A stretch of 53,821 bases of DNA from Rhodospirillales bacterium. GTDB lineage: Bacteria; Pseudomonadota; Alphaproteobacteria; Rhodospirillales; JAPHRK01. Shown here in pieces: positions 11,746 to 43,116 of this stretch; position 1 is the first letter of the stretch; each line of letters starts with the position of its first letter. Under the pieces are notes generated by a model, which was not told where the DNA came from, searched no databases, and saw only the letters and a program-made list of their open reading frames with translations. The stretch is from the NCBI GenBank assembly GCA_026196105.1, contig JAPHRK010000018.1, positions 1 to 53,821 of the forward strand. The letters run 5' to 3'. The position numbers and the translations under genes were made by a program.

Positions 11746-13326
11746 TTAGCTTCTTAATTTGAAACGTTGGATTTTACCTGTTGCGGTTTTGGGTAATTCT
11801 TGTTCAAAATTAAACCACCTTGGGTACTTATAACGAGCCAACCCATCTTTGCAGTGGGTGAGGAGCTCGTTCTTAAGTTCGTCGGAAGGTTCTTCACCTT
11901 CATTGAGAACGATAAAAGCTTCTGGTTTGATCAAGTCTTGATCATCGGCACGTCCAACGATGGCGGCCTCTAACACTTTAGGGTGTTCGATGAGTTTGGC
12001 TTCGATCTCAAAGGGTGAGCACCAAATGCCACCCACTTTGAGCATGTCGTCATCACGACCACAATAAACGAAGTAACCTTCTTCATCCAAAATATAGGTA
12101 TCTCCCGTGCTGAGCCAACCATCAACCATAGTTGTGGCGGTTTTCTCGGGGTTGTTCCAGTAATATTTAGCGGTTGAACCACCTTTGATAAACAGACGAC
12201 CAGATTCTCCAACGGGAACTTCCTTGTCATTTTCATCAATGATCTTGGCTTCGTAGCCTGGAACCATCAATCCACTTGTGCCTGCTTTAACTTTGCCGTC
12301 ACGGTTGGAGATGAAAATATGCAGGGCTTCTGTTGAGCCAATACCGTCCAGAATAGTTAAGCCGGTTTTTATTTTCCAACGATTAAACACATCAGCAGGA
12401 AGAGCTTCACCAGCAGAAACACACCAACGGACAGAAGAGAAATCAACTGTCCTGCTCTCTAGAGCTTGAAGTTGTGCCGCATAAAGGGTCGGTACGCCGA
12501 AATAAAGAGTTGGTTTGAATTTCTCAATGGTATCAAAAGTATTGTCTGGCATCGGACGACCAGGGAACAAGACTGCCGTAGCGCCAACCCAAAGCGGGAA
12601 GGTCATGCCATTGCCCAAGCCATAAGCAAAGAACAACTTAGCGGCAGAGAAGCAAACATCATCTTCAGTCACGCCAAGGGTATCAACGCCGTAATGTTGG
12701 CTGGTAACAACCATGTCTTGGTGGCTGTGAACGGTACCTTTAGGGGTGCCAGTTGAGCCTGAAGAGTAAAGCCAAAAGCAATCATCTTTTGCGGTTGCGT
12801 CAGCAGGGGGTAACTGATCAGAGCCCGCTTCAATCAATGAATTGAAAGTCGTATCGCCACTATCAGTGCAATAAGCATGTGCTGGTTTGGTTTTAACATT
12901 CGCGAGGGCGGGTTCTACTTCTTCTGCAAATTCTGAGGAGTAAATCACAGCGCCACAGGCTGAATCATCAATCATGAAGGTATAATCTTTGGCGCGCAAC
13001 AGGGTATTGAGTGCGACCGGGACGAAGCCGGCTTTAATGGCACCAAAGAAAACATAATAAAATTCTGGGGCATCCTTGATCATCATCAGGACGCGATCAC
13101 CTTTGTTCAGTCCCAAGTTAACCAGAGCATTGCCAGCTTTATTCACCATGGTTGCCAAGGTGCCGAAGGTCACTTCTTCACCCGTGGTGTTACGGATCAC
13201 GGTTTTATCTGCGCGCCCTTCATCCAAATGGCGATCAATAAAAGACACCGCAACATTGAAGTTGGGGGCAAAAGTCAAACCCGTTGGGCTTTGTGAAGTA
13301 TCGACTGATACGGAATGATCCCGCAT
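11746..13326 (-). CDS. bclA: Benzoate-CoA ligase
   Basis: A 526-residue AMP-forming acyl-CoA synthetase. The adenylation P-loop reads YSSGSTGTPKGTVHSHQD (about residues 190-207), followed by AKLFFAYGLGNGMTFPLW as in benzoate-CoA ligases, the A5 motif ILDGIGSTEALHIF, the A7 region GWLSTGDTYILDEEGYF, and a C-terminal PKTATGKIQRF with the catalytic lysine. It activates benzoate to benzoyl-CoA, the substrate of BoxAB. It sits between the liv importer and the box genes on the same strand. About 370 bases upstream hold a 27-base element also found before boxC. Specificity for benzoate against hydroxy- or amino-benzoate is inferred. Confidence 0.9.
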   Translation of the reverse strand: MRDHSVSVDTSQSPTGLTFAPNFNVAVSFIDRHLDEGRADKTVIRNTTGEEVTFGTLATMVNKAGNALVNLGLNKGDRVLMMIKDAPEFYYVFFGAIKAGFVPVALNTLLRAKDYTFMIDDSACGAVIYSSEFAEEVEPALANVKTKPAHAYCTDSGDTTFNSLIEAGSDQLPPADATAKDDCFWLYSSGSTGTPKGTVHSHQDMVVTSQHYGVDTLGVTEDDVCFSAAKLFFAYGLGNGMTFPLWVGATAVLFPGRPMPDNTFDTIEKFKPTLYFGVPTLYAAQLQALESRTVDFSSVRWCVSAGEALPADVFNRWKIKTGLTILDGIGSTEALHIFISNRDGKVKAGTSGLMVPGYEAKIIDENDKEVPVGESGRLFIKGGSTAKYYWNNPEKTATTMVDGWLSTGDTYILDEEGYFVYCGRDDDMLKVGGIWCSPFEIEAKLIEHPKVLEAAIVGRADDQDLIKPEAFIVLNEGEEPSDELKNELLTHCKDGLARYKYPRWFNFEQELPKTATGKIQRFKLRS

Positions 13327-13695
13327 GCTATTCTCTCCCAGAATTCAGAACCAACCTAATAAATCTTTTTATTTTTATTTAGGCAGCTTATCACGAGCTT
13401 GTTTTCTTGACGACTCCTTCAGAATTGAAAATCTCAAGGGTCTATGAAACTTCTCCCGTATACTCTCGGATGGTTAAACGTAAACCGGTACCGAAATATG
13501 TGTTTATTGGTATAGGGGATTATTTTACCCCCTGTCAAGCATGAAAAATCGCAGAAATCCGCGGTATTGTTGGGGTTCCGAACAACTTTATGGCTTTGAC
13601 TAGTGGTATAACTTTTTGGAATATACGGCTCCATCCTATGGAAAAGGCGGCATACAGGACGCCACCTTTGGGGTGGTGCTTACTAGAGGTTGCGC
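13327..13695. other. Intergenic region upstream of bclA
   Basis: This 369-base gap holds the bclA promoter region and the element at 13480-13506 shared with boxC. At its right end CCACC (13662-13666) pairs with GGTGG (13672-13676) about 20 bases beyond the pirin stop, a possible weak pirin terminator without a T-run. The short frames crossing the gap show no ribosome-binding site and no recognisable protein. Confidence 0.5.
13480..13506 (-). promoter_or_regulatory. Candidate operator upstream of bclA, shared with boxC
   Basis: This 27-base stretch matches 20702-20728 at 21 positions without gaps, and both carry CGGTACC followed by (A/G)AAATA. It lies about 154 bases before the bclA start in the same orientation relative to the gene. 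It is centred on a GGTACC palindrome. Likely a binding site for a common regulator; identity unproven. Confidence 0.45.
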
Positions 13696-15966: not shown

Positions 15967-17154
15967 CTAATAAGTTTCCACATGATAACGTCCACTTTCT
16001 TTCATCTCTGCTTCAAGCGACGGCCAATCGAGGCCACGGGCAGCGCAGACTCCGGCGAAAGATTCTTCCACACCTTTTTCCATGCCTTTTAGTCCGCAAA
16101 TATAAACGTAGGTATTGTTGCTTTTGAGTAACTCAGCCAGCTTTTCACCCTCTTTGTGCATACGGTCCTGCACATATTCTTTCGGCTGATCCGCCATCCG
16201 CGAAAACGACAGGTTAACGTCTATGAACTCTTTCGGCAGTTTTTTTAACGGCCCGAAATAAGGTTGATCGCCTGGTGTTCTAGCACCAAGGAATAGCATG
16301 AGTTTGCCGGGGGCGTCGGGATGGACTCGTTGGCGGCGCATGGTCATGGCACGCATGGGAGCCGCGCCCGTACCAGTAGCAACCATTATAATGTTGGCTT
16401 CCGGATGGTCGGGCATCAGGAAAGTTTGTCCAAAGGGGCCTGTGACAAGCACTTCGTCACCCTTCTTGAGATCACACATATAGTTTGAGCCCACACCTTT
16501 GATATCGCCATCGACCACACGCTTGATGGTCAGGGCCAGATTGTTGCGGTTGGGGCGTTCTCCATCGCGAGGACTAGCAATGGAATAAAGCCGGATGTGG
16601 TGTGGTTTACCTTTTTCATCTTCGCCGGGAGGTAGAATACCAATGCTTTGCCCCTCAAGGACAGGGAATGAGGTTGCTCCAAAATCAAGGACAATGTGGC
16701 GGATATCTGTGTCTGAATCCTTATCGGTAATGCGGTAGTTACCTGCGACGACTGCTTTAGCTGGTTTGTTGCGGCTATAGAGATGCAGTTTTGGTTTTGG
16801 AGCAGTTTTGGGCGGGATGATTTTTGCCCGGTCCTTACCTTCGGCCACATCGAACATGGCGACAATCTCGCGGTCCACATCCTCTTCCTCAACAGCGTCG
16901 CCTTCCTGATCGTCGGGCAGATCATCCCAGGTTAGTTGTTCTTCCACCGACCAGGGTTTGGCAACCGCCCTCCAGCTATCAATAGCACCTGTAGGGCAGG
17001 GAGAAATGCAGTGCATACAGCTTTCGCATTTATCAAAGTCGACCACGTAGTTGAGGTCGTTATGGGTAATTGCATCTATAGGACAAGCTTCCTCGCAGGT
17101 ATTACAGCGAATGCAAATAGCGGGGTCGATCAGGTGTTGTCTTTGGAGCTCCAT
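15967..17154 (-). CDS. boxA: Benzoyl-CoA 2,3-epoxidase reductase subunit BoxA
   Basis: A 395-residue reductase that passes electrons from NADPH to the BoxB oxygenase. Residues 1-65 hold two [4Fe-4S] motifs, CIRCNTCEEACP and CESCMHCISPCP. An acidic linker follows (DDQEGDAVEEEDVDREI). The rest is a ferredoxin-NADP reductase module with FAD-binding RLYSIASP and NADPH-binding ATGTGAAPMRA, ending ESGRYHVETY. Order and length match BoxA. Two palindromes lie just before the start codon (17175-17204). maoC follows after 12 bases. Confidence 0.96.
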   Translation of the reverse strand: MELQRQHLIDPAICIRCNTCEEACPIDAITHNDLNYVVDFDKCESCMHCISPCPTGAIDSWRAVAKPWSVEEQLTWDDLPDDQEGDAVEEEDVDREIVAMFDVAEGKDRAKIIPPKTAPKPKLHLYSRNKPAKAVVAGNYRITDKDSDTDIRHIVLDFGATSFPVLEGQSIGILPPGEDEKGKPHHIRLYSIASPRDGERPNRNNLALTIKRVVDGDIKGVGSNYMCDLKKGDEVLVTGPFGQTFLMPDHPEANIIMVATGTGAAPMRAMTMRRQRVHPDAPGKLMLFLGARTPGDQPYFGPLKKLPKEFIDVNLSFSRMADQPKEYVQDRMHKEGEKLAELLKSNNTYVYICGLKGMEKGVEESFAGVCAARGLDWPSLEAEMKESGRYHVETY

Positions 17155-17382: not shown

Positions 17383-18798
17383 CTAGTTAAAGCGAACGTA
17401 TTCGAATTCAGGCGCTTGGTTGTTGATACCCCGGTCAGGAGCCGCAATCCAGTTCGCCATTTTACCTGGTTCGGTAACAGGAGCCATCAGGGACAGAACA
17501 TATTCACGGTCTTCATTAGAAGGCAGCCATTCGTCTTGACGAGCTTCCCATTCAGCTTGGCTGATGATCTTGCCATCAGGTGTCGCATTGATGGAAGAGA
17601 ATGAACCAATACCACGGTGGAAGGCCCGGTGTGGGATGGTCAATTCAAAATCAATGCCCAGTTTCTGGATGATTTTGTTCCAACGGTTCACGCCCAACTG
17701 ACAGTCAGCGATGTAATCATCACGCAGACGCTCGTTGATGGCGGTCAGGGCTGGAGCTTCAGTGGTGCCAATGACGTCGCCTTTGATTTCAGAGACGATA
17801 TAGGAGTCATCATGGAGGCTGTGGTTGTCATCGATTTTGGTTTCTTGATAACGACCTTTAAGGCCCATGTTGTAGAAGTTGGCTGCGTTGGTAGAGAGCT
17901 CTTGACCGAAGAGATCAACAGAAACACTGAAGTGGAAGTTTAAGTATTTTTGCAGCAGTTCAAGTTCAATACCGCCGTAAGCACGAACGTCATCGGTTTT
18001 GTTGTCGCGCATGATTTCGCAAGCACGCTTGATGACTCGACCAACGCCGCTTTCACCAACAAACATGTGGTGAGCCTCTTCGGTCAACATGAAACGACAG
18101 CTACGAGCTAGCGGATCAAAACCGGATTCAGCCAAGGAAGCCAACTGGTATTTACCATCACGATCGGTGAAGAATGTGAACATAAAGAAGGAGAGCCAAT
18201 CAGGGGTCTCTTCGTTAAAGGCTTGCAAGATCCGTGGTTTGTCTGGGTCACCTGAGTGACGCTCAAGCATCTCATCAGCTTCTTCACGACCATCACGACC
18301 AAAGTGAGCATGAAGCAGGTAAACCATCGCCCAAAGGTGACGGCCTTCTTCAACGTTCACTTGGAACAGGTTGCGAAGGTCATAAAGTGATGGGCAGGTT
18401 TTACCAAGAGCGCGCTGTTGTTCAACAGAAGCTGGCTCAGTGTCACCTTGGGTCACGATGAGGCGGCGAAGTTCACCACGGTATTCACCTGGAACCTCTT
18501 GCCAGGCGGCTTCACCTTTGTGCTGACCGAAGTTAATTTGGCGTTCACCTTCAACTGGTGTCAGGAAGATACCCCAACGGTAGTCAGGCATTTTGACATG
18601 CTCAAAGTGAGCCCAGCCTTTAGGGTCAACGCTGACAGCGGTACGAAGGTATACGTCGTAATCTGTAGATCCGTTTGGACCAAGATCATCCCACCATTTC
18701 AGGTAGTTTGGTTGCCAATTTTCAAGGGCACGTTGTAAACGACGGTCGTCGTTAAGGTTAACGTTATTGGGAATTTTTTGACTATAATCGATGCTCAT
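17383..18798 (-). CDS. boxB: Benzoyl-CoA 2,3-epoxidase oxygenase subunit BoxB
   Basis: A 471-residue diiron oxygenase that, with BoxA and O2, converts benzoyl-CoA to 2,3-epoxybenzoyl-CoA. Diiron ligand regions are seen in VEEGRHLWAMVYLLHAHFG and LTEEAHHMFVGESGVGRV. DYDVYLRTAVSVDPKGWAHF near the start and DEWLPSNEDREYVLSLMAPV near the end match BoxB. Length matches the family (about 470). It is separated from boxC by a repeat-rich 150-base spacer and from boxA by a 228-base spacer, so the three genes are not tightly packed and may be differently expressed. Confidence 0.97.
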   Translation of the reverse strand: MSIDYSQKIPNNVNLNDDRRLQRALENWQPNYLKWWDDLGPNGSTDYDVYLRTAVSVDPKGWAHFEHVKMPDYRWGIFLTPVEGERQINFGQHKGEAAWQEVPGEYRGELRRLIVTQGDTEPASVEQQRALGKTCPSLYDLRNLFQVNVEEGRHLWAMVYLLHAHFGRDGREEADEMLERHSGDPDKPRILQAFNEETPDWLSFFMFTFFTDRDGKYQLASLAESGFDPLARSCRFMLTEEAHHMFVGESGVGRVIKRACEIMRDNKTDDVRAYGGIELELLQKYLNFHFSVSVDLFGQELSTNAANFYNMGLKGRYQETKIDDNHSLHDDSYIVSEIKGDVIGTTEAPALTAINERLRDDYIADCQLGVNRWNKIIQKLGIDFELTIPHRAFHRGIGSFSSINATPDGKIISQAEWEARQDEWLPSNEDREYVLSLMAPVTEPGKMANWIAAPDRGINNQAPEFEYVRFN

Positions 18799-18949: not shown

Positions 18950-20599
18950 TTAAACTCGCTTGAGGTCGTATGTTGCTTGCTTACCTGTACCGAAGAGCTT
19001 GAGGGCCCCATCAGCACCAACAGCATTAGGCCGTTGGAAAATCCAGTTTTGCCAAGCAGAAAGACGACCAAATATTTTGGTTTCCATGGTTTCAGGCCCC
19101 GCCCAACGAAGGCTTGCTTCCATGCCCGTGCAGGCATCTGGAGAGAAGCTGGCGCGCTCTTCAATAGCGATCCGTACTTCATCGTCCCAGTCCAGATCAT
19201 CGGGAATGAAAGTCACAAGGCCAAATTCATCGGCTCCAGCTGCGTCAATGTCATTGCCTTTTTCATCAGCGATTTCTTCGACTTTTTCTGGCGTGTCGAG
19301 GAAACGAGTTTGCAGACGAGTAAGGCCGTTGCACATTTCCAATGGACCAAAATTCATACCTGTTGGGCGCACAGTTGGAGCAGGACGGTTGTCACCTTCA
19401 TAGGTGCCATCCAACATGAAACTACGATCTGCAACCAGGAGAAATTCAAGGAAGGTTCCTGTAAAGCAACTACCAGGATCAACAACCGTGATTAGGCTGC
19501 GTGAGGTTACATCAATACGTTTGAAGACACGTTTGATGAACAATGTGGTTTCACGAACAAGCCAGTGGCTGGCGTTATCAAGTAACGATTGATCAGCAGA
19601 CTCTACTTTGTCAGCATCGCCACTGGTTTTAAATACCCAAGTGCCGATCTCGATTTCATTGGCACGCAAGTGCAAGATGGCGTCGTCCATGTCGCGAGCA
19701 AATGCTAAAGGCCAGTATTTAACGCCTTGAGCTTCAATGGTTGCAATATCAGAAGGAACATTTTCCGTTGGTGCGTGGGCTGTGATTTCAGCAGTGCGGT
19801 TGGTGCGGTCTATTTTGATGGAAACCGTGTCGTAGGAAACTTCATCACCTTTGATGGTGCGGCTTACTTCGGTAAACTCAACGCCTTTGGCATCACTTGG
19901 GCGGTCAGATTTAGCAGCCCATTCATCGGCACGTTCTTTAGCGACATCCATAAGCTTGGAAAGAGGGACGATCTCATCAACCAGTTTCCAAGAAACAGCC
20001 CGTTTGCCTTTGATGCCTTCATTGATGGTGCAGAAGAAATCAGCGTGATCACGACGCACATAACGTTTGTCGACAACGCGTGTGAGGCCACCCGTGCCAG
20101 GAAGCACTGCCAGAAGGGGAACTTCTGGAAGAGAAACGGCGCTGGTGCCATCATCGACCAAAATAATATGGTCAGTGGCTAGAGCCAACTCGTAACCACC
20201 GCCAGCTGCAGTGCCGTTAACAGCAGAGAAATACTTTTGACCAGAATTTTCGGAGGCGTCTTCAATAGAGTTCCGAGTTTCATTAGTGAACTTACAGAAG
20301 TTCACTTTGTGATGATGGGTAGATTGACCTAACATGCTGATATTCGCCCCAGAGCAGAATACTTTTTCTTTTGCAGAAGTGACAATCACTGATTTAACTT
20401 CTGGGTGCTCAAAACGAAGCCGTTGGATGGCATCATAAAGTTCAATATCAACGCCGAGATCATAAGAGTTGAGTTTCAACTCGTAACCTGGGACCAGACC
20501 ACCATCTTCGGCAATATCCATCGTCAATGTTGCGGTAGATCCATCGTAGTCTACTGACCAGTGACGATACTTGTTTGGATTCGTTCTAAAATCAATCAT
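18950..20599 (-). CDS. boxC: 2,3-epoxybenzoyl-CoA dihydrolase BoxC
   Basis: A 549-residue enzyme of the crotonase superfamily that hydrolytically opens the ring of 2,3-epoxybenzoyl-CoA and releases formate. The first crotonase half is clear: VIVTSAKEKVFCSGANISML and NGTAAGGGYELALATDHIIL form the oxyanion-hole regions, then LPEVPLLAVLPGTGGL. The second half (FTGTFLEFLLVADRSFML) is the divergent repeat seen in BoxC. I chose ATG 20597-20599 (MIDFRTNPNKYRHWSVDYDG) because GAGG lies 11 bases upstream and homology begins there; an upstream in-frame ATG at 20680 lacks a site. First gene of the box block, divergent from the GNAT/Rrf2 genes. Confidence 0.96.
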   Translation of the reverse strand: MIDFRTNPNKYRHWSVDYDGSTATLTMDIAEDGGLVPGYELKLNSYDLGVDIELYDAIQRLRFEHPEVKSVIVTSAKEKVFCSGANISMLGQSTHHHKVNFCKFTNETRNSIEDASENSGQKYFSAVNGTAAGGGYELALATDHIILVDDGTSAVSLPEVPLLAVLPGTGGLTRVVDKRYVRRDHADFFCTINEGIKGKRAVSWKLVDEIVPLSKLMDVAKERADEWAAKSDRPSDAKGVEFTEVSRTIKGDEVSYDTVSIKIDRTNRTAEITAHAPTENVPSDIATIEAQGVKYWPLAFARDMDDAILHLRANEIEIGTWVFKTSGDADKVESADQSLLDNASHWLVRETTLFIKRVFKRIDVTSRSLITVVDPGSCFTGTFLEFLLVADRSFMLDGTYEGDNRPAPTVRPTGMNFGPLEMCNGLTRLQTRFLDTPEKVEEIADEKGNDIDAAGADEFGLVTFIPDDLDWDDEVRIAIEERASFSPDACTGMEASLRWAGPETMETKIFGRLSAWQNWIFQRPNAVGADGALKLFGTGKQATYDLKRV

Positions 20600-20681
20600 G
20601 AGCCAAAAACCTCTTATCCGGGCAATGCCGTTAAGCCTCTCTATATAGTCAAAAGTGGGAACCTGTTTCGCGGAATTCAAT

Positions 20682-20728
20682 GCTGCAAAATCAGGTTAGC
20701 TGCAAATCGGTACCAAAATACCTATTTA
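20682..20728 (-). promoter_or_regulatory. Candidate operator region between boxC and the GNAT gene
   Basis: 20702-20728 is the partner of the bclA-upstream element (21 of 27 positions equal, core CGGTACCAAAATA). It lies about 103 bases before boxC and 65 bases before the GNAT start, so it could serve both directions. A near-direct repeat GCTGCAAAATC (20682-20692) / GCTGCAAATC (20699-20708) adjoins it. The natural candidate regulator is the Rrf2 protein encoded at 21294. Confidence 0.45.
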
Positions 20729-20792
20729 CATATTGGCTTCGGCCTTACAAACTGTCAAGAAGATTCGGAAATTATTCTGGTGGGAGAAAAAA

Positions 20793-21269
20793 ATGTCTAA
20801 TAAAACGAATGGGGAAGAGTATTTATTCGAATTAGACGAACTAGTAATTAGGCGTGCTTCAGCAGGTGATATGAGTGCTGTCGTTGACATTGATCAGTTA
20901 AATACGGGCATAACCAAGCCAGAATATTGGAAAGATACCTTTGTTCGCTTTGGTAGTCGTTCTGATCGATTCTTTCTAGTCGCTGAAGATTCTGGTGAAG
21001 TAATTGCCTTCATCATTGGCGAAATGCGGGCATGGGAATTTGGCTCTCCTCCTTGTGGGTGGATTTTTGCCATGGGCGTAAATCCCAATGCGCGTTTAAA
21101 AAAGGTCGGTAGTCATATGTTTAATGTGATGTGTGAGTGCTTGAACAAAGCAGGAGCCGATAAAGTAAGAACAATGTTGGCCAGGGATGACAATCTCAAC
21201 ATGGCCTTCTTTAGAAGTCAGGGCATGATGGGTGGTCCGTTTATTGAACTCGAAATGCCGTTGGATTAA
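20793..21269 (+). CDS. GNAT family N-acetyltransferase, possibly BadL-like
   Basis: A 158-residue single-domain acetyltransferase: LVIRRASAGDMSAVVDID opens the fold, VAEDSGEVIAFIIGEM forms the central strands, MGVNPNARLKKVGSHMF is the acetyl-CoA binding motif A, and NLNMAFFRSQGMM the late helix. I chose ATG 20793 because GGGAG lies eight bases before it; a 20-residue in-frame extension upstream is unlikely. In Rhodopseudomonas palustris the acetyltransferase BadL, encoded with benzoate genes, acetylates aminobenzoates so that they are not wrongly activated to CoA esters. Divergence from boxC and linkage to an Rrf2 gene make that role plausible here; it is not proven. Confidence 0.8.
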   Translation: MSNKTNGEEYLFELDELVIRRASAGDMSAVVDIDQLNTGITKPEYWKDTFVRFGSRSDRFFLVAEDSGEVIAFIIGEMRAWEFGSPPCGWIFAMGVNPNARLKKVGSHMFNVMCECLNKAGADKVRTMLARDDNLNMAFFRSQGMMGGPFIELEMPLD

Positions 21270-21293
21270 TGGCATGATTGGGCAAGGGGTATT

Positions 21294-21728
21294 ATGAAAC
21301 TTCAAAAAGCGACTCGTTGTGCATTATTTGCCGTACTTGAATTGGCAAATAATCCAGAAACGCAGCTTTCGGCAACAGATATTGCGGATAAGTACAATAT
21401 TTCAGCCAACCATCTGGCAAAAGTCTTAAGAGATTTAGGGCGAGCTGGATTGGTCGAATCCGTTCGTGGTGCTGGTGGGGGCTATCGATTCTGCGGTAAT
21501 TCAAAACGCACCACTCTTTATGATCTTGTTCTTCTCTTTGAAGATGTAGGTGAAGCTCAACAAGGTGACGGAGATGACGGTGAGCATACCGAAGTCGGCG
21601 CAGCTTTGGGACGGATCCTTAATGAGATAGATGAAATTGCTATTGCTACATTAAGGTCGATTACCATAGCGACCCTTCTTAAGACTATGCATTGGCATGC
21701 AGAAAGGGAAAGCCGTGGGGTTGCCTAA
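21294..21728 (+). CDS. Rrf2 family transcriptional regulator, BadM-like candidate
   Basis: A 144-residue winged-helix regulator. KLQKATRCALFAVLELANNP, SATDIADKYNISANHLAKVL and GLVESVRGAGGGYRF are the standard Rrf2 recognition-helix and wing. The cysteine triad that binds an iron-sulfur cluster in IscR is missing: only Cys9 and Cys67 are present. It may therefore sense something other than Fe-S or redox state. BadM of R. palustris is an Rrf2 repressor of anaerobic benzoate genes. The gene starts 24 bases after the GNAT gene, and its end overlaps the KdsC-like frame. Probably controls the boxC/bclA-type promoters (inference). Confidence 0.85.
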   Translation: MKLQKATRCALFAVLELANNPETQLSATDIADKYNISANHLAKVLRDLGRAGLVESVRGAGGGYRFCGNSKRTTLYDLVLLFEDVGEAQQGDGDDGEHTEVGAALGRILNEIDEIAIATLRSITIATLLKTMHWHAERESRGVA

Positions 21729-22230
21729 ATTATCTAAGGACGCACTTATCGAAAAGCTCAAATCTATTAAGCTTTTCTCTCTTGATGTTGATGGTACCCT
21801 GACCGATGGCGGTCTTTATTATATGGAAGACGGAACTGAATACCGTCGTTTTAATGTCCGTGATGGCATGGGGATTAAGCTTTCTCAGAAAGCTGGAATG
21901 GAATTCGCCATTGTTACAGCCAGTTTCACCCCGTCAATTACCCATCGAGCCGAACGGTTAGGCATTGAACACCTCCACCTCAAAGTTGAGGACAAAGTAA
22001 TCTCTATTGGAGAAATATGTGCCGAAAAGGGTTGGTCTATGGATCATGTTGCTCATATTGGTGATGATGTGAATGATCTCGGTATCCTTGAAGTTGTCGG
22101 TCTGCCCCTTTGTCCTGCTGATGCTATTGACTCTGTAAAAGAAAAATCGGCATATATCTGTGAAAATAAAGGTGGCATGGGCGCAGTACGTGAAATCTGC
22201 GACCTGATTTTAATTTCACGGGGGCAATAA
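21715..22230 (+). CDS. KdsC-like HAD phosphatase
   Basis: A 171-residue HAD-superfamily C0-type phosphatase, as in 3-deoxy-D-manno-octulosonate 8-phosphate phosphatase. All motifs are present: LFSLDVDGTLTDGGLYY (nucleophile and acid/base Asp), IVTAS, the conserved Lys of KVEDK, and AHIGDDVNDLGIL; C-terminal GGMGAVREICD is KdsC-like. The start is uncertain: ATG 21697 lacks a ribosome-binding site, GTG 21715 follows AAGGGAAAG, and TTG 21721 is also possible. It overlaps the Rrf2 gene. No kdsD, kdsB or lpt genes are nearby, unusual for a housekeeping kdsC, so another sugar phosphate is possible. Confidence 0.8.
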   Translation: MGLPKLSKDALIEKLKSIKLFSLDVDGTLTDGGLYYMEDGTEYRRFNVRDGMGIKLSQKAGMEFAIVTASFTPSITHRAERLGIEHLHLKVEDKVISIGEICAEKGWSMDHVAHIGDDVNDLGILEVVGLPLCPADAIDSVKEKSAYICENKGGMGAVREICDLILISRGQ

Positions 22231-33357: not shown

Positions 33358-35799
33358 TTGAAAGTACGTTGGTGGGATAAAGTTGCCATCAGGCAAGCAC
33401 GCCATGTGATTACTGTGGCGCTCACGATTGGTATTGCTCTTACCTGTTTTCAAATTTACTACGATTATTCGAAAGAAAAATCTCTCCTAACCAGCACAAT
33501 TCTACAAGTCATTAACACCACAAAAAATGCGGCGGCTGAATCTGCCTACAACATTGATATCCAGTTGGCTAACGAGGTGGCTAATGGCTTGTTCGAATTC
33601 GAGCCAATCCTTGAGATTAAAATTGTTGATGAGTTAGGAACGCTCCTTGCTGATAGAAAACGCGAACTAGGAGATCATAATTTCCGCTGGTTGGCGGATA
33701 AACTTTTTGGGGAAAAATCAGAATACTCCGTAAAACTTTATCACAACGAAAAGCCAAATTTTAGTGTTGGTACTTTGAATGTTCGTGTTGATCCGAGAGA
33801 AACAGCGGTTGCTTTCTTCGACCGTTCACTCATTGCTTTTGGTTCAGGCATATTTAGAAACTTAATCTTAGCTCTTATCTTAACTATTGTTTTTATTCGT
33901 TTTTTAGCAAAACCACTTGTGGAAATTAGCGAAGCTTTTGCGAAGTTTGACCCGAAGATGCCTGCGCAAACAGTCCTTCCTGTTCTTAAAAACCATGAAA
34001 AAGATGAATTTCGGGTCCTGACCAATGCGGGGAACCGTATGTTGGAAGCTATTAATAGTGAACTTGGGAACAGGGCGAGGGTAGAGGAAGAGCTACGGCA
34101 GGAGAACGAGGAAAGACAGAAAATCGAAGGCAAGTTACGCCTAGCTCATGAAGAGTTAGAACAACGGGTTGAAGAACGAACGCAGGATTTACGAAGGGAA
34201 ATTGCAGAGAGAAAGTTTGTTGAAGCAACTCTGCGCCAAAGCCAAGAGCGGTTCCGTGATATTGCCGAATCGACCTCCGATTGGTTTTGGGAAATGGGTC
34301 CAGACCTTTGCTTTACTTACGTTTCAAGGAAGGGGTATGATTCTATCGGCCTCACTCCTGGGGATGTCATCGGCAAATCTCGTTTTGAGCTCCTTTCACA
34401 AGATGAACTTGGCGAAAATTCTGAGAAATGGCGCTTACATAAAGAAGATTTAGAAAACCGCTTGCCCTTCCAGAAATTAGAATATTCTGTGGAGCTCAAA
34501 GGAGAAGGGATGCACCATTACCAAGTGAGTGGTAAACCCTTCTTTGATGAAGCTGGCGAGTTTTTGGGCTATCGCGGCGCTGCAAGAGATATTACTCAAC
34601 GTATTCAACGGGAGAAAGATCTTAGTGTTGCTAAGGAAGAAGCCGATCTGGCTAACCAAGCCAAATCAGAATTCCTTTCTTCAATGAGTCATGAATTGCG
34701 CACCCCCTTAAATGGCGTCTTGGGTTTTGCCCAGCTCTTGGAATACTCCCCAGATGAGCCCTTAAGCGAACGCCAAACGGAGTATGTTGATCATATTCTC
34801 AAAGCTGGAGATCATCTTTTAGAGTTGATTAACGAAGTTCTTGATCTAGCCAAAATCGAGTCGGGAAGTATCAGCTTATCTATTGAGCCAATTGAACCTT
34901 CTATTGTTATCCAGGAATGCATTGAGTTGCTCTCTCCTCTTGCTGAGAAACACGAAGTTCATATCATTGGTGATGATAGTGGTGACAGTGAGGATGCCTT
35001 GGTTTTGGCTGATTTCACCCGGCTTAAACAAATCCTGGTAAACCTCATGTCTAACGCGATTAAGTATAATCGCAAAGGTGGCCAAGTTACCCTGGCTTGT
35101 CATCGGCATAGGGAGTTCTTCCGTTTCTTAATTACTGATACAGGATATGGAATACCAGAAGATCGAATCGAAGCATTGTTCTTACCTTTCAATAGGTTAG
35201 AGGCTGAAAATAGCGAGATTGAAGGTACTGGGGTTGGCCTTACAATCACCAAACGTTTGGTTGAACTAATGGGGGGAGGTATTAGCCTTGAAAGTACGGT
35301 AGGCAAAGGAAGTACCTTCTGGATCGATCTCCCTGTTCTTTCAGAGGAAGAAACTTTTACACAGGTTCGCAGTGAGACAAGAGAGAAAAGCTATCCTCTC
35401 GCTACAGAGCAAACATTCGGTGAGAAGAAAATGGTTCTGTATGTTGAAGATAATCCAGCTAATCTGGATTTGATGCGCGAGCTTATGGTGCAATTTTCTG
35501 ACGTGAAAATGATCTCAGCTCACACGGCTGAACTCGGTTTGGAGCTAGCTGAGGCCCATAGACCAGACCTTATCTTGCTCGATATCAATCTCCCGGGTAT
35601 GAATGGCTTTGAAGCCTTGGAAAGGTTGCAGGAAATGGAAGAGATCAAAGATACTCCTATCCTGGCCTTAAGTGCCAACGCCATGGAACGTGATATCGAA
35701 CGGGGGCTAGAGGCAGGCTTTCTAGATTACTTAACAAAGCCTTTGAATATTGAGAAAACACTCAACGCGATCCGAACTGCTTTGGAATCAAAAAGCTAG
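33358..35799 (+). CDS. PAS-containing hybrid sensor histidine kinase
   Basis: An 813-residue membrane kinase starting at TTG with GGAGAGAGG seven bases upstream. Order: TM helix (about 18-35), periplasmic sensor (36-160), TM helix (162-181), a linker and long coiled coil (about 235-292, EELRQENEERQKIEGKLRL), PAS (about 293-425), HisKA with H-box SMSHELRTPLNGVLGFAQLL (His445), HATPase with GTGVGLTITKRLVELMGGG, and a C-terminal receiver ending in LLDINLPGMNGFEAL with Asp742 as phospho-acceptor. No output domain, so a separate response regulator or phosphotransfer protein is needed. It converges with the diheme cytochrome gene, 10 bases away, next to the nos genes. Confidence 0.92.
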   Translation: MKVRWWDKVAIRQARHVITVALTIGIALTCFQIYYDYSKEKSLLTSTILQVINTTKNAAAESAYNIDIQLANEVANGLFEFEPILEIKIVDELGTLLADRKRELGDHNFRWLADKLFGEKSEYSVKLYHNEKPNFSVGTLNVRVDPRETAVAFFDRSLIAFGSGIFRNLILALILTIVFIRFLAKPLVEISEAFAKFDPKMPAQTVLPVLKNHEKDEFRVLTNAGNRMLEAINSELGNRARVEEELRQENEERQKIEGKLRLAHEELEQRVEERTQDLRREIAERKFVEATLRQSQERFRDIAESTSDWFWEMGPDLCFTYVSRKGYDSIGLTPGDVIGKSRFELLSQDELGENSEKWRLHKEDLENRLPFQKLEYSVELKGEGMHHYQVSGKPFFDEAGEFLGYRGAARDITQRIQREKDLSVAKEEADLANQAKSEFLSSMSHELRTPLNGVLGFAQLLEYSPDEPLSERQTEYVDHILKAGDHLLELINEVLDLAKIESGSISLSIEPIEPSIVIQECIELLSPLAEKHEVHIIGDDSGDSEDALVLADFTRLKQILVNLMSNAIKYNRKGGQVTLACHRHREFFRFLITDTGYGIPEDRIEALFLPFNRLEAENSEIEGTGVGLTITKRLVELMGGGISLESTVGKGSTFWIDLPVLSEEETFTQVRSETREKSYPLATEQTFGEKKMVLYVEDNPANLDLMRELMVQFSDVKMISAHTAELGLELAEAHRPDLILLDINLPGMNGFEALERLQEMEEIKDTPILALSANAMERDIERGLEAGFLDYLTKPLNIEKTLNAIRTALESKS

Positions 35800-35809
35800 A
35801 GTCTAATAC

Positions 35810-36490
35810 CTAGTCGTCCAAGGTTGCTAAATACGCCAAGATATTTTTGATATCGTCAGCTTCTAACTCTGCAAATGTTTCTTCAGCGTCTTCATGCTGA
35901 CGTGCGCCTGTTTTAAAATGCTCAACCTGTGTGAAGAGGTAATCTGAGAATTGTCCAACAAGTTGAGGCGTATTCTTTTTACCTTGGCCTTTCTTGCCAT
36001 GGCAAAGAGCACAATCGGAGCGATAAGAGATTTCTCCTTTTTTAATATCCCCAGGATAAGGAGGAATTTGAACAACTTTTTTGCTCTTGTTCAGGATGAT
36101 AATAGCCCTTGTACCTTCTGGGAATACTGGAATGCGTGTTCCTAGTTTTTGCTGAGAATGAAAGGTTGTGATGTTAAAGATGTCTTCTGCTGATAACTCT
36201 CGCTCATTGGCAAAAGGAAGCATAGGAATATTGACTCGTTTGCGTTCAAAGAACTCCTTCATTTGGTCAACGAGGTATTTCCGCGGTAATCCAGCTAGCC
36301 TAGGATAAACTCCACCGCCGCCGCCTTGACCGAACTCCCCATGACAAGCAGCGCAGACTCGATTGATATCTTCTGCTTCATATTCGTCGTATTCAAATTC
36401 TTCCTCATTAGCATAAGAAAGTGATGAAATTGTTATAAAACAGATGGTTAGGAGGAAGAATAAGCTAGATTTGAAATGACCGAGTGACAT
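35810..36490 (-). CDS. Diheme cytochrome c (c4-like)
   Basis: A 226-residue periplasmic electron carrier. The signal peptide ends near SSLSYA-NEEE. Two heme c sites, VCAACHGE (about residue 45) and DCALCHGK (about 155), lie in two similar halves; the C-terminus FAELEADDIKNILAYLATLDD is c4-like. An acidic stretch (EEEFEYDEYEAED) follows the signal. Divergent from nosZ with a 247-base spacer. It probably passes electrons to NosZ or another periplasmic acceptor. Confidence 0.9.
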   Translation of the reverse strand: MSLGHFKSSLFFLLTICFITISSLSYANEEEFEYDEYEAEDINRVCAACHGEFGQGGGGGVYPRLAGLPRKYLVDQMKEFFERKRVNIPMLPFANERELSAEDIFNITTFHSQQKLGTRIPVFPEGTRAIIILNKSKKVVQIPPYPGDIKKGEISYRSDCALCHGKKGQGKKNTPQLVGQFSDYLFTQVEHFKTGARQHEDAEETFAELEADDIKNILAYLATLDD

Positions 36491-36634
36491 GGAAACCCTA
36501 AATTCTTGTTAGTAATTACGATTAAAAACAGGTGCGCGAATGGAACATGTAGAGTTTCTACTCTAAATGACTTTCATCAAATTATATTGAGACTGCGCCA
36601 TATGACACAATTTTTTGTGCCAAAAGACCCTTTT

Positions 36635-36681
36635 TTGACTGAAGTCAATTGACCTTTCAGTTAAAACATATAAGTTTTCTC
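36635..36681 (+). promoter_or_regulatory. FNR/DNR-type box and -10 element of the nosZ promoter
   Basis: TTGACTGAAGTCAA (36635-36648) is a perfectly symmetric FNR-superfamily site (TTGAC-N4-GTCAA). TATAAG (36669-36674) would be the -10, placing the start near 36681 and the box centre at about -40, the spacing of a class II activated promoter. Fits anaerobic or NO-dependent control of nosZ. A second inverted repeat, CACAA-TTTT-TTGTG, lies about 28 bases upstream. Confidence 0.65.
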
Positions 36682-36737
36682 CCGTATATCTTTAGGGGTT
36701 TATACTTCACACAAATATAATGAAGATAGGTAGGAAC

Positions 36738-39035
36738 ATGAAGCTGTCATTTAAAAACATGGTCGCTGCGGCGACTGTCTTAGGGGTAAGCTTGGCTGCC
36801 GGCGTTAGTGCCAATGCTCAAGACACTCTTCAAGACGTCATGAAAAAGCGAGGATTGACTGAAAAGGATATCCTCTCTGCTGCCAAGACTTACACACCAA
36901 CAGGTGGACGTGATGAATTCATTGCATTCGCTTCTGGTGGACAGTCTGGACAAATTATTGTCTACGGCATCCCTTCTATGCGTATTCTTAAGTATATTTC
37001 TGTTTTCACACCTGAACCATGGCAAGGTTATGGCTTTGATGAAGAATCAAAGAAAGTTCTCGCTATGGGGAACATGAATGACCAAGAAATTACCTGGGGT
37101 GATGTTCACCATCCAGCAATTTCTGAAACCAATGGTGAGTACGACGGACGTTACTTGTTTACCAACGATAAAGCTAATCCACGGATTGCCGTTATCGATT
37201 TGCACGATTTTGAGACTAAACAAATTGTTGTTAATCCGGTCTTCAAATCAAACCATGGCGGTGCGTTTGTAACGCCTAACACCGATTATGTCATCGAAGC
37301 AGCTCAATACCCTGCTCCTCTGACCAACGAATATGTACCACTTTCTCAATTTAACGAAAAATATCGTGGTGGTGTAACCTACTGGAAGTTTGATCGCAAA
37401 AAAGGTCGTATCATTCCAGAAGAATCATTCACCGTTGAAATGCCTCCATACTCACAAGATCTTTCCGATTTCGGTAAAGGCCCTTCTGATGGCTGGTCAT
37501 TCACCAACTCATTCTGCACTGAGCGTTATGTAGGTGGTATTGAGAATGGTCGTCCTCCATTTGAGGCTGGTTGTTCTCAAAAAGATACCGATTTCTTCCA
37601 CATGGTTAATTGGAAGAAAGCCGCTGAATTGGTTAAAGCTGGTAAAGCTAACAAAATCAACGGCCACGACGTTCTAAGCATTGATACCGCTGTGAAAGAA
37701 GGCATCTTGTACCTAGTACCAGAGCCAAAATCTCCACACGGTATGGATGTTAGCCCAGACGGTAAATTCATGATTGTTGCTGGTAAATTGGATACACATG
37801 CATCCGTTTACTCATTCGAAAAAATCATGGGTCTGATCAAAGCTAAGGACTTCGCAGGTAAAGATCCTTATGGTATTCCAATTCTCGACATGAAAAAATC
37901 TCTGCACTTGCAGCTTTCTGTTGGTCTTGGTCCTCTTCACACCCAGTATGATTCCAAACCTTGTATCGTTTACACCTCTATCTACGTAGACAGTCAAGTC
38001 ACCAAATGGAACTACTGTGAAGGTAAAGTTCTCGATAAACTTAACATTCACTATAACATTGGCCACTTAATGACCATGGAAGGCGATTCTGTTAAGCCTA
38101 AAGGTAAGTACCTTGTATCCATGAACAAATTGGCTATTGATCGTTTCAACCCTGTTGGCCCTCTGCACCCGCAGAACCACCAGTTGATCGACATCAGCGG
38201 CGACAAAATGCAACTTCTATATGATATGCCTATCCCACTGGGTGAGCCACACTATGCTGTTGCTATTGCTGCCGAAACTCTGAAACCGATCATTCGTTAC
38301 AAAGTTGGTTGGAACAGCCGTGAAGACGTGAAGCACGAGTATCGTTCTCGTCCGGGTCGTGAAAAAGTTGTTCGTGATGGCACCAATGTACATGTATACG
38401 GTACCCTCATTCGTTCACACATCACACCTGAAATTGTTGAAGTTGAACAAGGCGATACAGTTTACTTCCACATGACTAACCTTGAGCGTGCTCAAGATCA
38501 AACCCACGGTTTCGCTGTCGACATGCACAATGCTAACTTGTCAGTTGAACCTGGTAAAACAGCTACCGCAAAGATTGTGGCTAAAAATGCTGGTGTATTC
38601 CCATACTTCTGCTCTGAGTTCTGCTCAGCGCTGCACTTGGAAATGCAAGGTTACTTACTTGTTAAACCTAAAGGCACGAAGAGCGATGCATCTGGTCCTT
38701 CTGTTGGTACCAAATACACCGAAGCTGACTACAAAGGTGAACTTGCTACCATTAAAGGTACTCAAGACGTCATCAACAGCGTTGTTGGTTTCATCACCAG
38801 CCAAAACTACACAGATTTCAAACCTGTTGTAGCCTTGGTTGAAGATGCTACTGATCAGCTGAACTTCGCTGCCGATGCAGAGAAGAAACACAAAGCTGCT
38901 GCTGAGAAGAAAGATTGGCAAAACGCTACTCTTTGGGCTCAACAACACTTCCAATACCAAGTTAAAGCTGCTGACATTGGTCTGCGCGCTAAAACTTACC
39001 TGGAAGAGCACGGTTCTAAGACGGTTAAAAAATAA
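36738..39035 (+). CDS. nosZ: Nitrous oxide reductase NosZ, clade II (Sec-dependent)
   Basis: A 765-residue periplasmic enzyme that reduces N2O to N2. Residues 1-28 form a Sec signal without twin arginines (FKNMVAAATVLGVSLAAGVS), the clade II hallmark. The beta-propeller holds the CuZ histidines in DVHHPAIS, SPHGMDVSPDGK, PLHTQYD, NIGHLM, PLHPQNH and GEPHYA. The CuA site is CSEFCSALHLEM (Cys625, Cys629, His633, Met636) with THGF upstream. About 119 extra residues follow the CuA domain (from about 647), mostly helical, without a CxxCH. I chose ATG 36738 for its AGGTAGG site; an in-frame ATG at 36720 has none. First gene of the nos cluster. Confidence 0.97.
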   Translation: MKLSFKNMVAAATVLGVSLAAGVSANAQDTLQDVMKKRGLTEKDILSAAKTYTPTGGRDEFIAFASGGQSGQIIVYGIPSMRILKYISVFTPEPWQGYGFDEESKKVLAMGNMNDQEITWGDVHHPAISETNGEYDGRYLFTNDKANPRIAVIDLHDFETKQIVVNPVFKSNHGGAFVTPNTDYVIEAAQYPAPLTNEYVPLSQFNEKYRGGVTYWKFDRKKGRIIPEESFTVEMPPYSQDLSDFGKGPSDGWSFTNSFCTERYVGGIENGRPPFEAGCSQKDTDFFHMVNWKKAAELVKAGKANKINGHDVLSIDTAVKEGILYLVPEPKSPHGMDVSPDGKFMIVAGKLDTHASVYSFEKIMGLIKAKDFAGKDPYGIPILDMKKSLHLQLSVGLGPLHTQYDSKPCIVYTSIYVDSQVTKWNYCEGKVLDKLNIHYNIGHLMTMEGDSVKPKGKYLVSMNKLAIDRFNPVGPLHPQNHQLIDISGDKMQLLYDMPIPLGEPHYAVAIAAETLKPIIRYKVGWNSREDVKHEYRSRPGREKVVRDGTNVHVYGTLIRSHITPEIVEVEQGDTVYFHMTNLERAQDQTHGFAVDMHNANLSVEPGKTATAKIVAKNAGVFPYFCSEFCSALHLEMQGYLLVKPKGTKSDASGPSVGTKYTEADYKGELATIKGTQDVINSVVGFITSQNYTDFKPVVALVEDATDQLNFAADAEKKHKAAAEKKDWQNATLWAQQHFQYQVKAADIGLRAKTYLEEHGSKTVKK

Positions 39036-39059
39036 CTGTTGATGTGCGCTACAATATTG

Positions 39060-39089
39060 GAGGGGGGCGCCTTTTGCCCCCCTCTTTTT
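39060..39089 (+). terminator. Intrinsic terminator after nosZ
   Basis: GAGGGGGGC (39060-39068) pairs with GCCCCCCTC (39076-39084), followed by five T residues. A strong hairpin 25 bases past the nosZ stop. Partial termination would raise NosZ over the assembly proteins. Confidence 0.9.
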
Positions 39090-39141
39090 GTCAATTTTTA
39101 GACATCTTTTTTGAAGATAATATAATTTTTGGAGGTTCCTT

Positions 39142-39891
39142 ATGAACAAATGGATTGCTGGAGCAGCGTTGGTAATTGGGACAACGCTTGCAATGACACA
39201 ATTCGAAACCAGATCGGCTTTTGCTGCTGGTCTTAATGATACAGACGGCGCCATCCAACTCGCAGCCAATGAGACAGCGCCTAAAAAGGCGAAGAAGAAA
39301 AAGCACCCCGGTAAAAGAGTCTACGGAGCCCGCGGTGGTTTCGGTTGTTTAGCCTGTCATGGTAGGAATGGCGCAAAAGCTATTAAAGATTATCCAAATG
39401 TTGCTGGGCAAGATAAAAAGTATATTGAAAATCAAATCAAACACATCATGAATGGCAAACGTGTTTCAAGCATTGACCCTGCTGATGGCCAACCTCGTAC
39501 CGCTGGTATGAAAGGAGCTTTGCTGACTCCAGATGGGGAGCCTCGTATGACCAAGCAACAAATCAAGGATGTTGCTGCTTGGTTATCTAGCCTTAAGCCC
39601 GCTAAAATAAAAGAACCTGCAGAGCCTTTAGATCCAGCCCGTGTTGCAAAAGGCGCAAAGCTTTATAAAAAGAGTTGTAAAAGTTGTCATGGCAAAGAAG
39701 GAAAGAAACCTTTAAAAGGCAATCCTTATGTTGCAGGTCAGAAAATTCCTTACCTTGTGAACCAGATGATGGATATTAAAAATAAGGTACGTAAAAATGG
39801 GCGTAGCAAAACTATGGTCCCGGTTATTAAAAAGTTCTCTGATGACGACATCAAAGTAGTGGCCGAGTACTTGTCTCAAGTCAAACGCTAA
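39142..39891 (+). CDS. Diheme cytochrome c of the nos cluster
   Basis: A 249-residue periplasmic cytochrome. Signal peptide to about residue 30 (ETRSAFA-AG). A lysine-rich linker (PKKAKKKKHPGKRVY) precedes heme site GCLACHGR (about residue 70); the second is SCKSCHGK (about 178). Both halves read like class I/c4 cytochromes, ending KVVAEYLSQVKR. GGAGG lies eight bases before the ATG. Strongly basic, unlike the acidic cytochrome at 35810, which could help the two dock. Likely an electron donor to NosZ, in the place of nosC genes in other clade II clusters. Confidence 0.92.
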   Translation: MNKWIAGAALVIGTTLAMTQFETRSAFAAGLNDTDGAIQLAANETAPKKAKKKKHPGKRVYGARGGFGCLACHGRNGAKAIKDYPNVAGQDKKYIENQIKHIMNGKRVSSIDPADGQPRTAGMKGALLTPDGEPRMTKQQIKDVAAWLSSLKPAKIKEPAEPLDPARVAKGAKLYKKSCKSCHGKEGKKPLKGNPYVAGQKIPYLVNQMMDIKNKVRKNGRSKTMVPVIKKFSDDDIKVVAEYLSQVKR

Positions 39892-39940
39892 GCCACCTAA
39901 AGATTATATATAAAGCCCAGATATTTATTGGAGCATGTAA

Positions 39941-40666
39941 ATGAACGTAAAAATGAAAACTTTGGTCGCAGCCGTGGCCTTAACCTTTGGTTTCTCTGCT
40001 GGCGCAATGGCCGCAGATGCTAAAAAATGGAATGAAGGCGGTGGGGAACAGGGCGATGCGCTTAAACTCACTCCAAACCTCGAAAACGGTGTTGAAGTTT
40101 ATGAAGTTTGTTCTGCTTGCCATCTCCCTGAGGGTTGGGGGCTACCAGATGGCACCTTCCCCATGCTTGCTGGTCAACACGCAAAAGTAACGATCAAACA
40201 ATTGGCTGATATCCGGGCTCTGAACCGCGATAACCCAACCATGTACCCTTTCGCACTTCCAAGTGAAATTGGTGGCCCGCAATCTATTGCTGACGTTGCT
40301 GCCTATATCGCTAAATTGCCCATGAACCCTAAGCCAGGTCTTGGTGAATGGGCAGAAGGCACACCTGAATTTGAACATGGTAAAAAACTATATGCAGATA
40401 ACTGCGTCCGTTGCCATGGTGCAAATGGTGAAGGTATACCTGATAAATATTACCCTCGTATTCAAGGACAGCACTATAATTACCTTGTGCGCCAATTCGA
40501 GTGGATCAGGGATGGTAAACGTCGTAATGCTAACCCAGACATGGTTGAGCAAATCAAAGGCTTCTCAGATGACGATATGAAGCAAGTAATGAACTTCGTT
40601 TCTCGTCAGAAACCTCCTGCGAAAGATGTTGGACCCGAAGGCTGGTTAAACCCAGATTTCGACTAA
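39941..40666 (+). CDS. Second diheme cytochrome c of the nos cluster
   Basis: A 241-residue periplasmic cytochrome with signal peptide to about residue 25 (FSAGAMA-AD). Heme sites are VCSACHLP (about 53) and NCVRCHGA (about 155). PRIQGQHYNYLVRQFEWIRDGKRR and DDDMKQVMNFVSRQ follow the c4 pattern. GGAG precedes the start. Cotranscription with the preceding cytochrome is likely (49-base gap). Probable electron carrier between the quinol-linked NosGH and NosZ. Confidence 0.92.
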   Translation: MNVKMKTLVAAVALTFGFSAGAMAADAKKWNEGGGEQGDALKLTPNLENGVEVYEVCSACHLPEGWGLPDGTFPMLAGQHAKVTIKQLADIRALNRDNPTMYPFALPSEIGGPQSIADVAAYIAKLPMNPKPGLGEWAEGTPEFEHGKKLYADNCVRCHGANGEGIPDKYYPRIQGQHYNYLVRQFEWIRDGKRRNANPDMVEQIKGFSDDDMKQVMNFVSRQKPPAKDVGPEGWLNPDFD

Positions 40667-40681
40667 GACACGATTGAAAAA

Positions 40682-40711
40682 GGGCTGCGCCCCGGGGGGG
40701 AAGCGCAGCCC
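40682..40711 (+). terminator. GC-rich hairpin before nosB
   Basis: GGGCTGCGC (40682-40690) pairs with GCGCAGCCC (40703-40711) around CCCGGGGGGGAA. No T-run follows, so it may stabilise the upstream mRNA rather than terminate. Confidence 0.55.
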
Positions 40712-40775
40712 CAAGTCCATTGAACATCAAATTTACGCCTGTTCATGGAATTGATTATTGCTACGGAAAAAAACA

Positions 40776-41765
40776 ATGACAACTGAAGCAAACGGTAATT
40801 TGGGCCTCCTTTCCAGGTTGCTAACACTCGTAGGACTCGTCTTCATCGTCGCTGCCTACTTCTCCCCCATTTGGTGGGTATCTCTGACCGCTCCGCAATA
40901 TCCTGATGATGCCTTCCCACAAGGTATTCGCATACACTTCCATGTTGATTCTGTTTCCAATGGCTGTAAAAAAGTTGTAGTCAAAGAAAGGCATCATGAA
41001 GAGGAAGCGCTAAACTGTAAGCACGAGATGGATGCCATTAACCACTATGTGGGTATGTATCCAATTTCTTCTGGTGGCCCTGTTGAGCGAGCTTATGCGC
41101 CCTTCATGTTCTCCCTTCTTGTATTGATGTTGCTGACCTTTATGGTGCCAGGACAAGGAAAGAGGGCTGTCGTTTTTGCTGGGGGAGGCGCTGCCATTAT
41201 CGGGTGGATGTCCTTAGCAATGATGACCAAAGGGGGAATGGCCTATTTGTCTCCCAACTACATTTATGACCTTACCACGACGATGTCTCTCTACGATGAA
41301 GATTGGGCCGATTGGTCTGGTATGATGGCGATCAAAGAAAGCTATTCGGAAGGTTTAGGTCGTTATTTTCGGGATGTAGTTAATAATAACAAAGCTGTTG
41401 CTGTGATGATGACGGCAGCTAACGTTGTCTATTGGGCAATTATAGCTGCTGTAATTGTCGTTGCCATAGGTTTGTGGAAGTTTCGCCCAACCATGTGGCT
41501 CCTGGCTCTTGTCCCTGCTGCTCTGCCTATATTCTTCGTTGTAGAATACGCCGCATGGCTATGGTGGTTTGGTCATAGCTTGCACGAAATGGCGGCCTTT
41601 ACGGTGAAGCCTTTCATGCCAACGGTTTTGGGCCAGGGTAAAGTTGCCCAGTTCGCCACCTATTCTTACCCCCATTACGGATTTGGATTTTTTGTAGCTA
41701 CTTTCTTTGCCTTAGCTCTTGCAATGCTCCTAAGACGTAAACAAATGAAGGAAAACGGTGAGTAA
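40776..41765 (+). CDS. nosB: NosB-like membrane protein of clade II nos clusters
   Basis: A 329-residue inner-membrane protein with about six hydrophobic segments. The N-terminal helix is followed by SPIWWVSLTAPQYPDDAFPQGI and then a periplasmic loop rich in His and Cys (KKVVVKERHHEEEALNCKHEMDAINHYVGMYP), a possible metal site. Later segments include YAAWLWWFGHSLHEMAAFTVKPFMP. Place and character match NosB, a marker of clade II clusters whose exact role is unknown. I prefer ATG 40776 to a TTG 18 bases upstream. Confidence 0.85.
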   Translation: MTTEANGNLGLLSRLLTLVGLVFIVAAYFSPIWWVSLTAPQYPDDAFPQGIRIHFHVDSVSNGCKKVVVKERHHEEEALNCKHEMDAINHYVGMYPISSGGPVERAYAPFMFSLLVLMLLTFMVPGQGKRAVVFAGGGAAIIGWMSLAMMTKGGMAYLSPNYIYDLTTTMSLYDEDWADWSGMMAIKESYSEGLGRYFRDVVNNNKAVAVMMTAANVVYWAIIAAVIVVAIGLWKFRPTMWLLALVPAALPIFFVVEYAAWLWWFGHSLHEMAAFTVKPFMPTVLGQGKVAQFATYSYPHYGFGFFVATFFALALAMLLRRKQMKENGE

Positions 41766-41785
41766 TTCACTGTTTTAGGTGAGGC

Positions 41786-43111: not shown

Positions 43112-43116
43112 GTAGG

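Follow-up and report, generated by a model that had tools for sequence, protein, structure and literature searches.

A BadL/BadM-type gene pair divergent from boxC is a candidate switch for the aerobic and anaerobic benzoyl-CoA routes of a Rhodospirillales bacterium

The window analysed here, a stretch of 53,821 nucleotides from a Rhodospirillales bacterium, contained a badL-like GNAT acetyltransferase gene (20793–21269, plus strand, ATG at 20793, 158 aa; PF00583, E 2.9e-10) followed in tandem by a badM-like Rrf2 regulator gene (21294–21728, plus strand, 144 aa; PF02082, E 4.4e-26, and TIGR00738 above its cut-off). On the minus strand were boxC (18950–20599; TIGR03222), boxB (17383–18798; TIGR03225), boxA (15967–17154; TIGR03224) and bclA of the benzoate-CoA ligase family (11746–13326; TIGR02262), all four above the NCBIfam cut-offs. 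The minus-strand order was bclA, the genes of a pirin, a DUF4336 protein and a MaoC-type protein, and then boxA-boxB-boxC, and the starts of boxC (20599) and the GNAT gene diverged across a gap of 193 bp. Open reading frames, strands and family matches agreed with a preliminary description of this DNA, which had reported a GNAT–Rrf2 tandem divergent from boxC, and the matches to PF00583, PF02082 and TIGR00738 bore out its assignment of the two proteins to the families of BadL and BadM. Profile searches of the PDB returned distant structures only, the lowest E being 5.6e-8 with the GNAT and 4.5e-14 with the Rrf2 protein, and a search of viral contigs for a relative of the GNAT confirmed none. 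Elsewhere in the window (33358–47159) the translations alone pointed to a nosR, nosZ, nosD, nosF, nosL and nosY-like set for nitrous oxide reduction. Among 29 fetched BoxB loci, a BoxA match was present at the window locus and at L113 only; elsewhere bclA tends to directly succeed boxB.

A KdsC-like HAD phosphatase frame (21697–22230, plus strand, start ATG 21697 or GTG 21718; TIGR01670 above its cut-off), absent from the preliminary description, overlapped the 3′ end of the Rrf2 frame. It is probably the third gene of the badL-badM operon in the window. Its product was 39% identical to the other KdsC of the genome, encoded by a second KdsC-like gene. As a general third member of the operon the gene was rejected, being found downstream of the pair in only 18 of 100 loci (14 of 94 when six duplicates were removed).

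The pair resembled BadL/BadM of Rhodopseudomonas palustris in its GNAT and Rrf2 families and its link to benzoyl-CoA, and clustered badL and badM genes, as found here, also occur in M. magneticum and G. metallireducens, according to the available text of PMC6191541. In R. palustris, BadL makes acetamidobenzoates and these release BadM, and the BadL homologues of the other two species have the same activity (PMC6191541, available text). This chemistry speaks against the protective role that had been proposed for the acetyltransferase. The target of R. palustris BadM is the anaerobic badDEFGAB operon (same text), whereas the pair described here adjoins the aerobic boxC.

A GNAT match (E 0.001) was detected in 21 of 60 genomes of the order, the window's own included, and 19 strong orthologous loci were fetched from 18 other genomes. 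The next gene after the GNAT encoded an Rrf2 protein in all 19. When named genomes were scanned with a profile, at least 532 relatives were confirmed, and among the best 80, which were kept, Rrf2 was again the next gene at 80 of 80 loci; at least four loci were common to the two sets. The pairing is not due to chance. Records in the named-genome scan were mostly alphaproteobacterial, some being labelled Acidobacteria, Terriglobia, Myxococcales, SAR324, Beta-, Gamma- or Deltaproteobacteria, and the nearest named proxies to the GNAT were from Paramagnetospirillum kuznetsovii (L093) and Magnetospirillum fulvum (L102), both 54% identical. GNATs of R. palustris are involved in lysine acetylation of acyl-CoA ligases, and a GNAT sequence does not reveal its substrate, so that the enzyme could acetylate a protein, for example benzoate-CoA ligase, instead of aminobenzoate. 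This is very unlikely, because the GNAT was tied to Rrf2 at every fetched locus, also where no ligase was nearby, and because the BadL homologues acetylated aminobenzoates but not BadM (PMC6191541, available text).

At other loci the pair was divergent from boxC, bcrC or bclA, or lay within reach of a bcr operon; at five (L018, L037, L040, L044 and L050) it was flanked by boxC and, on the opposite side, by bcr genes. The 112 loci of a tree set had box genes (32), bcr genes (33), both (5), bclA (9) or other genes (33, including stretches ended by contig ends) beside the pair, so box, bcr or bclA was near it in 79. The BadL and BadM sequences of these 112 loci were joined, and a tree was built from them by a quick method. 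Box-side and bcr-side copies interleaved, the box label needing nine changes, at least three of them forced by starred branches, and a separate box-specific subfamily was therefore rejected. The window pair fell in a box-rich part of the tree, next to Terasakiella-type copies, without starred support.

Co-occurrence was assessed by searching 385 genomes of the class, among them the window's own, for BadL (E 1e-20), BoxB and BcrB, which were found in 21, 81 and 15 genomes, respectively. BoxB was present in 20 of the 21 BadL genomes, and the 15 BcrB genomes included 14 with BadL and 15 with BoxB. In the 370 genomes without BcrB, BadL was detected in 6 of 66 with BoxB versus 1 of 304 without (p 1.6e-4, relatedness ignored). 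In all six box-only BadL genomes (G124, G171, G180, G243, G336 and G413) badL adjoined boxC. The BadL match in G145 was a fragment at a contig end. These counts, together with the neighbourhoods in the tree set, upheld the expectation that benzoyl-CoA genes accompany the pair in other genomes. In the window's own genome, matches to PF01869 led to a contig (C5) carrying had-oah-dch-bcrCBAD, which the preliminary description had lacked; Had and BcrB were above their cut-offs, and genes apparently of the 4-hydroxybenzoyl-CoA reductase type were located downstream of the operon.

Reading of the upstream regions revealed a common inverted repeat, AAATnGGTA-n6-TACnTATTT. In the boxC–badL gap it formed a predicted BadM operator (20704–20727, no strand assigned) with 9-bp arms and a 6-bp spacer, scoring 42.1 bits with a matrix from which it had been withheld. 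A second predicted operator (13482–13505, likewise unstranded), upstream of bclA, scored 27.3 bits, was entered at 13477 in the own-genome scan and was outside the training regions, the matrix being trained on badL upstream regions only. This badL-grown matrix found 69 of 94 badL upstreams above 15 bits, against a maximum of 4.9 in 470 mononucleotide shuffles, a comparison that is circular. When a matrix was derived from 31 box-side sites instead, 28 of 61 other badL upstreams exceeded 10 bits, versus 9 of 610 stretches drawn at random from the same loci. Over 2,281 kb, 126 sites exceeded 18 bits, while 30 column-permuted matrices gave a mean of 0.17 and at most 1. As a plain pattern with two mismatches the repeat was uninformative (56 matches versus 60 in the reversed control). 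A tighter pattern gave 11 versus 2; it was built from four of its own matches, so that the informative ones were a fifth exact match (on contig C63) and two one-mismatch matches on contig C54.

Untrained sites in the own genome were found before had-oah-dch-bcrCBAD (C5:799, 26.6 bits), between a double-GNAT gene and an SDR gene (C5:11151, 25.0 bits), at two positions on C54 (26.4 and 23.8 bits) and on C63, before a gene whose product belongs to no known family (28.8 bits). The C54 cluster contained a phenylacetate-CoA-ligase-like gene (below cut-off) and molybdopterin-oxidoreductase-like genes, suggestive of a role in phenylacetate metabolism. Among 18 sites away from the core genes in the wider scan, nine adjoined double-GNAT or SDR genes, seven adjoined genes that look hemerythrin-like and two were inside badL. 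The last two (L032:10030 and L093:10148) were strong matches within the coding region, with no site upstream of badL there. At L085:5112, L090:7961, L150:4738 and L152:1189 the predicted operators were 31–38 bp before the hemerythrin-like genes, which belong to bcr clusters or lie near them. At L121:10054–11007, beside the bcr operon of the window's own genome, lay the gene of a two-domain GNAT protein with a distant likeness to BadL and a predicted operator of its own; in other genomes, too, similar double GNATs have predicted sites.

The distribution of the repeat leads us to infer BadM as its binding protein. Alternatively, the repeat could be the site of another regulator and merely travel with these genes: binding by BadM is a prediction, the pair lacks an upstream repeat in some genomes, and one genome (G362) has the repeat but no BadL match. 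We regard this as unlikely, since the repeat was at the badL promoter in those 69 of 94 loci whatever the neighbouring genes, even without box and bcr, and since an unsystematic look noticed no regulator gene that tracks the pair equally well.

Promoters were scanned for sites above 18 bits within 300 bp upstream. Such sites were present before 38 of 50 boxC genes, 28 of 42 leading genes of bcr operons and 6 of 29 bclA genes, and before none of 143 operon-internal controls (0/49 BcrB, 0/43 BoxB and 0/51 BcrD); in some of the bcr operons scored as lacking a site, the leading gene was lost at a contig end. As 31 boxC and 6 bcr upstreams shared a region with the training set, the untrained ones were counted separately, giving 8 of 19 boxC and 23 of 36 bcr leaders. 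The untrained boxC promoters split by linkage, 6 of 6 beside badL versus 2 of 13 unlinked ones being above 18 bits (5 of 13 unlinked above 12 bits). The sites between badL and boxC in the six box-only genomes, none of which was in training, scored 30.0–39.8 bits. Seven box-side genomes with a distant bcr operon, or one on another contig, had a had gene in reach (the own genome, L144, L147, L148, L149, L154 and L157); six of their sites were above 18 bits and the seventh scored 14.7.

A putative −35-like element of the boxC promoter, TTGACA, was located at 20753–20758 (minus strand), 42 bp before the operator centre. TTGAC started at this same distance in 30 of the 38 site-bearing boxC promoters; among 28 Had, BcrC and Oah promoters, 13 had it starting 20 bp ahead of the operator centre. 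Both placements would be compatible with a repressor that competes against RNA polymerase. Given their difference, the aerobic promoter may have come under this control independently instead of having been moved as a block. An FNR-like site (TTGAN6TCAA), considered as the oxygen signal, was rejected as too rare (4 of 50 boxC and 2 of 42 bcr upstreams).

These promoter data bear on a reading in which BadL and BadM control only the anaerobic bcr genes (with bclA), adjacency to box being positional and box being regulated otherwise. It would explain why unlinked box promoters mostly lack a site and why BadL accompanies BcrB so closely. It is quite improbable, given that badL is retained next to boxC, with strong sites, in the six class genomes that have box but lack bcr, that the same holds for box-side genomes without a BcrB match (e.g. 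G018, G029, G039 and G055), and that the distance from the operator to the boxC −35 element is so widely kept. Joint control of both routes is preferred, and box and bcr are suggested by the common repeat as joint predicted targets, unlike in R. palustris.

Known regulators of the BoxR/BzdR type combine an XRE domain with a shikimate-kinase-like domain. The own genome, searched with PF01202 (shikimate kinase), yielded a single protein, in a 195-aa frame, so this architecture was not seen in the genome and no BoxR/BzdR-type protein was found by that search, as the preliminary description had held for the locus. Three Rrf2 proteins (E 0.001) were detected in the genome, the window protein included; the genes of the other two appear to adjoin cysteine desulfurase genes and a cysteine synthase gene, respectively. 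The window protein had two cysteines (residues 9 and 67) and thus lacked the three cysteine ligands of iron-sulfur Rrf2 regulators of the IscR/NsrR type. Among the BadM proteins of the 112 loci, 59 had no cysteine and 110 had fewer than three, which makes an iron-sulfur cluster on three cysteines unlikely in this family. BoxR/BzdR proteins of Azoarcus/Aromatoleum and other Betaproteobacteria control box and bzd where both routes may coexist (PMC10803450, available text), whereas the candidate here is an Rrf2 protein with a predicted inducer-making partner. The same 2024 survey, as far as its available text goes, places BadM only in alphaproteobacterial (ligase) contexts and describes the anaerobic pathway there; this text contains no occurrence of BadL and no link between BadM and box (PMC10803450). 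No publication connecting BadM or BadL with box genes was found in the open-licence literature, outside which most subscription papers fall, nor was such a connection seen in the available texts of PMC10803450 and PMC6678401.

Taken together, the GNAT and Rrf2 proteins would form a BadL/BadM-type sensing module that gates both the aerobic and the anaerobic benzoyl-CoA route, a reading to which we give a probability of about 65%. By analogy with R. palustris, BadM would act as a repressor and acetamidobenzoate as inducer. BadM would bind the inverted repeat across the boxC promoter, just upstream of badL, and so repress the box genes and its own badL-badM operon; it would also bind the unlinked repeats before bclA, had-oah-dch-bcrCBAD, the double-GNAT/SDR pair and the phenylacetate-like cluster. 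BadL would acetylate aminobenzoates, and its products would release BadM from the repeats at both routes, so that the presence of aromatic acids would gate both. The choice between the routes would be left to a separate oxygen signal.

Several observations count against this model. In the 11 class genomes with badL away from box, the box promoter had a site above 18 bits in 2 and above 12 bits in 5, and 25 of the 94 badL upstreams had no clear site. One bcr operator, of 31.1 bits, belonged to a genome lacking a BadL match (G362, 94% complete). About 10 mM ligand was required for the effect in R. palustris (PMC6191541, available text). Five genomes (G015, G036, G028, G046 and G440, the last Terasakiella brassicae) had the pair but no BoxB or BcrB match; their loci (L021, L020, L027, L025 and L054, respectively) retain the operator at badL.

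The finding is real, and stronger than first stated; pairing, linkage and operator distribution support the proposed switch on both routes. The two families, the benzoyl-CoA company and the failure to find a BoxR-type regulator stood, and the ideas of protection and of genes "borrowed" between the routes did not. Borrowing is too simple, since the same genome carries a bcr operon and the predicted operator precedes both routes; the module looks shared between the routes in this genome and looks reassigned in genomes with box but without bcr. For a fuller version, in which BadL/BadM gates box, bcr, benzoate-CoA ligase and part of phenylacetate breakdown, the aerobic promoter was recruited separately and the module is a purely aerobic regulator where bcr is missing, we see roughly even odds.

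The analysis provides a candidate regulator, a 24-bp predicted operator and a short list of promoters for the control of box genes in bacteria without BoxR. The regulator pair retains its predicted operator while the neighbouring pathway changes. This suggests that alphaproteobacteria with both routes may prime them by one substrate signal, with oxygen sensing choosing between them.
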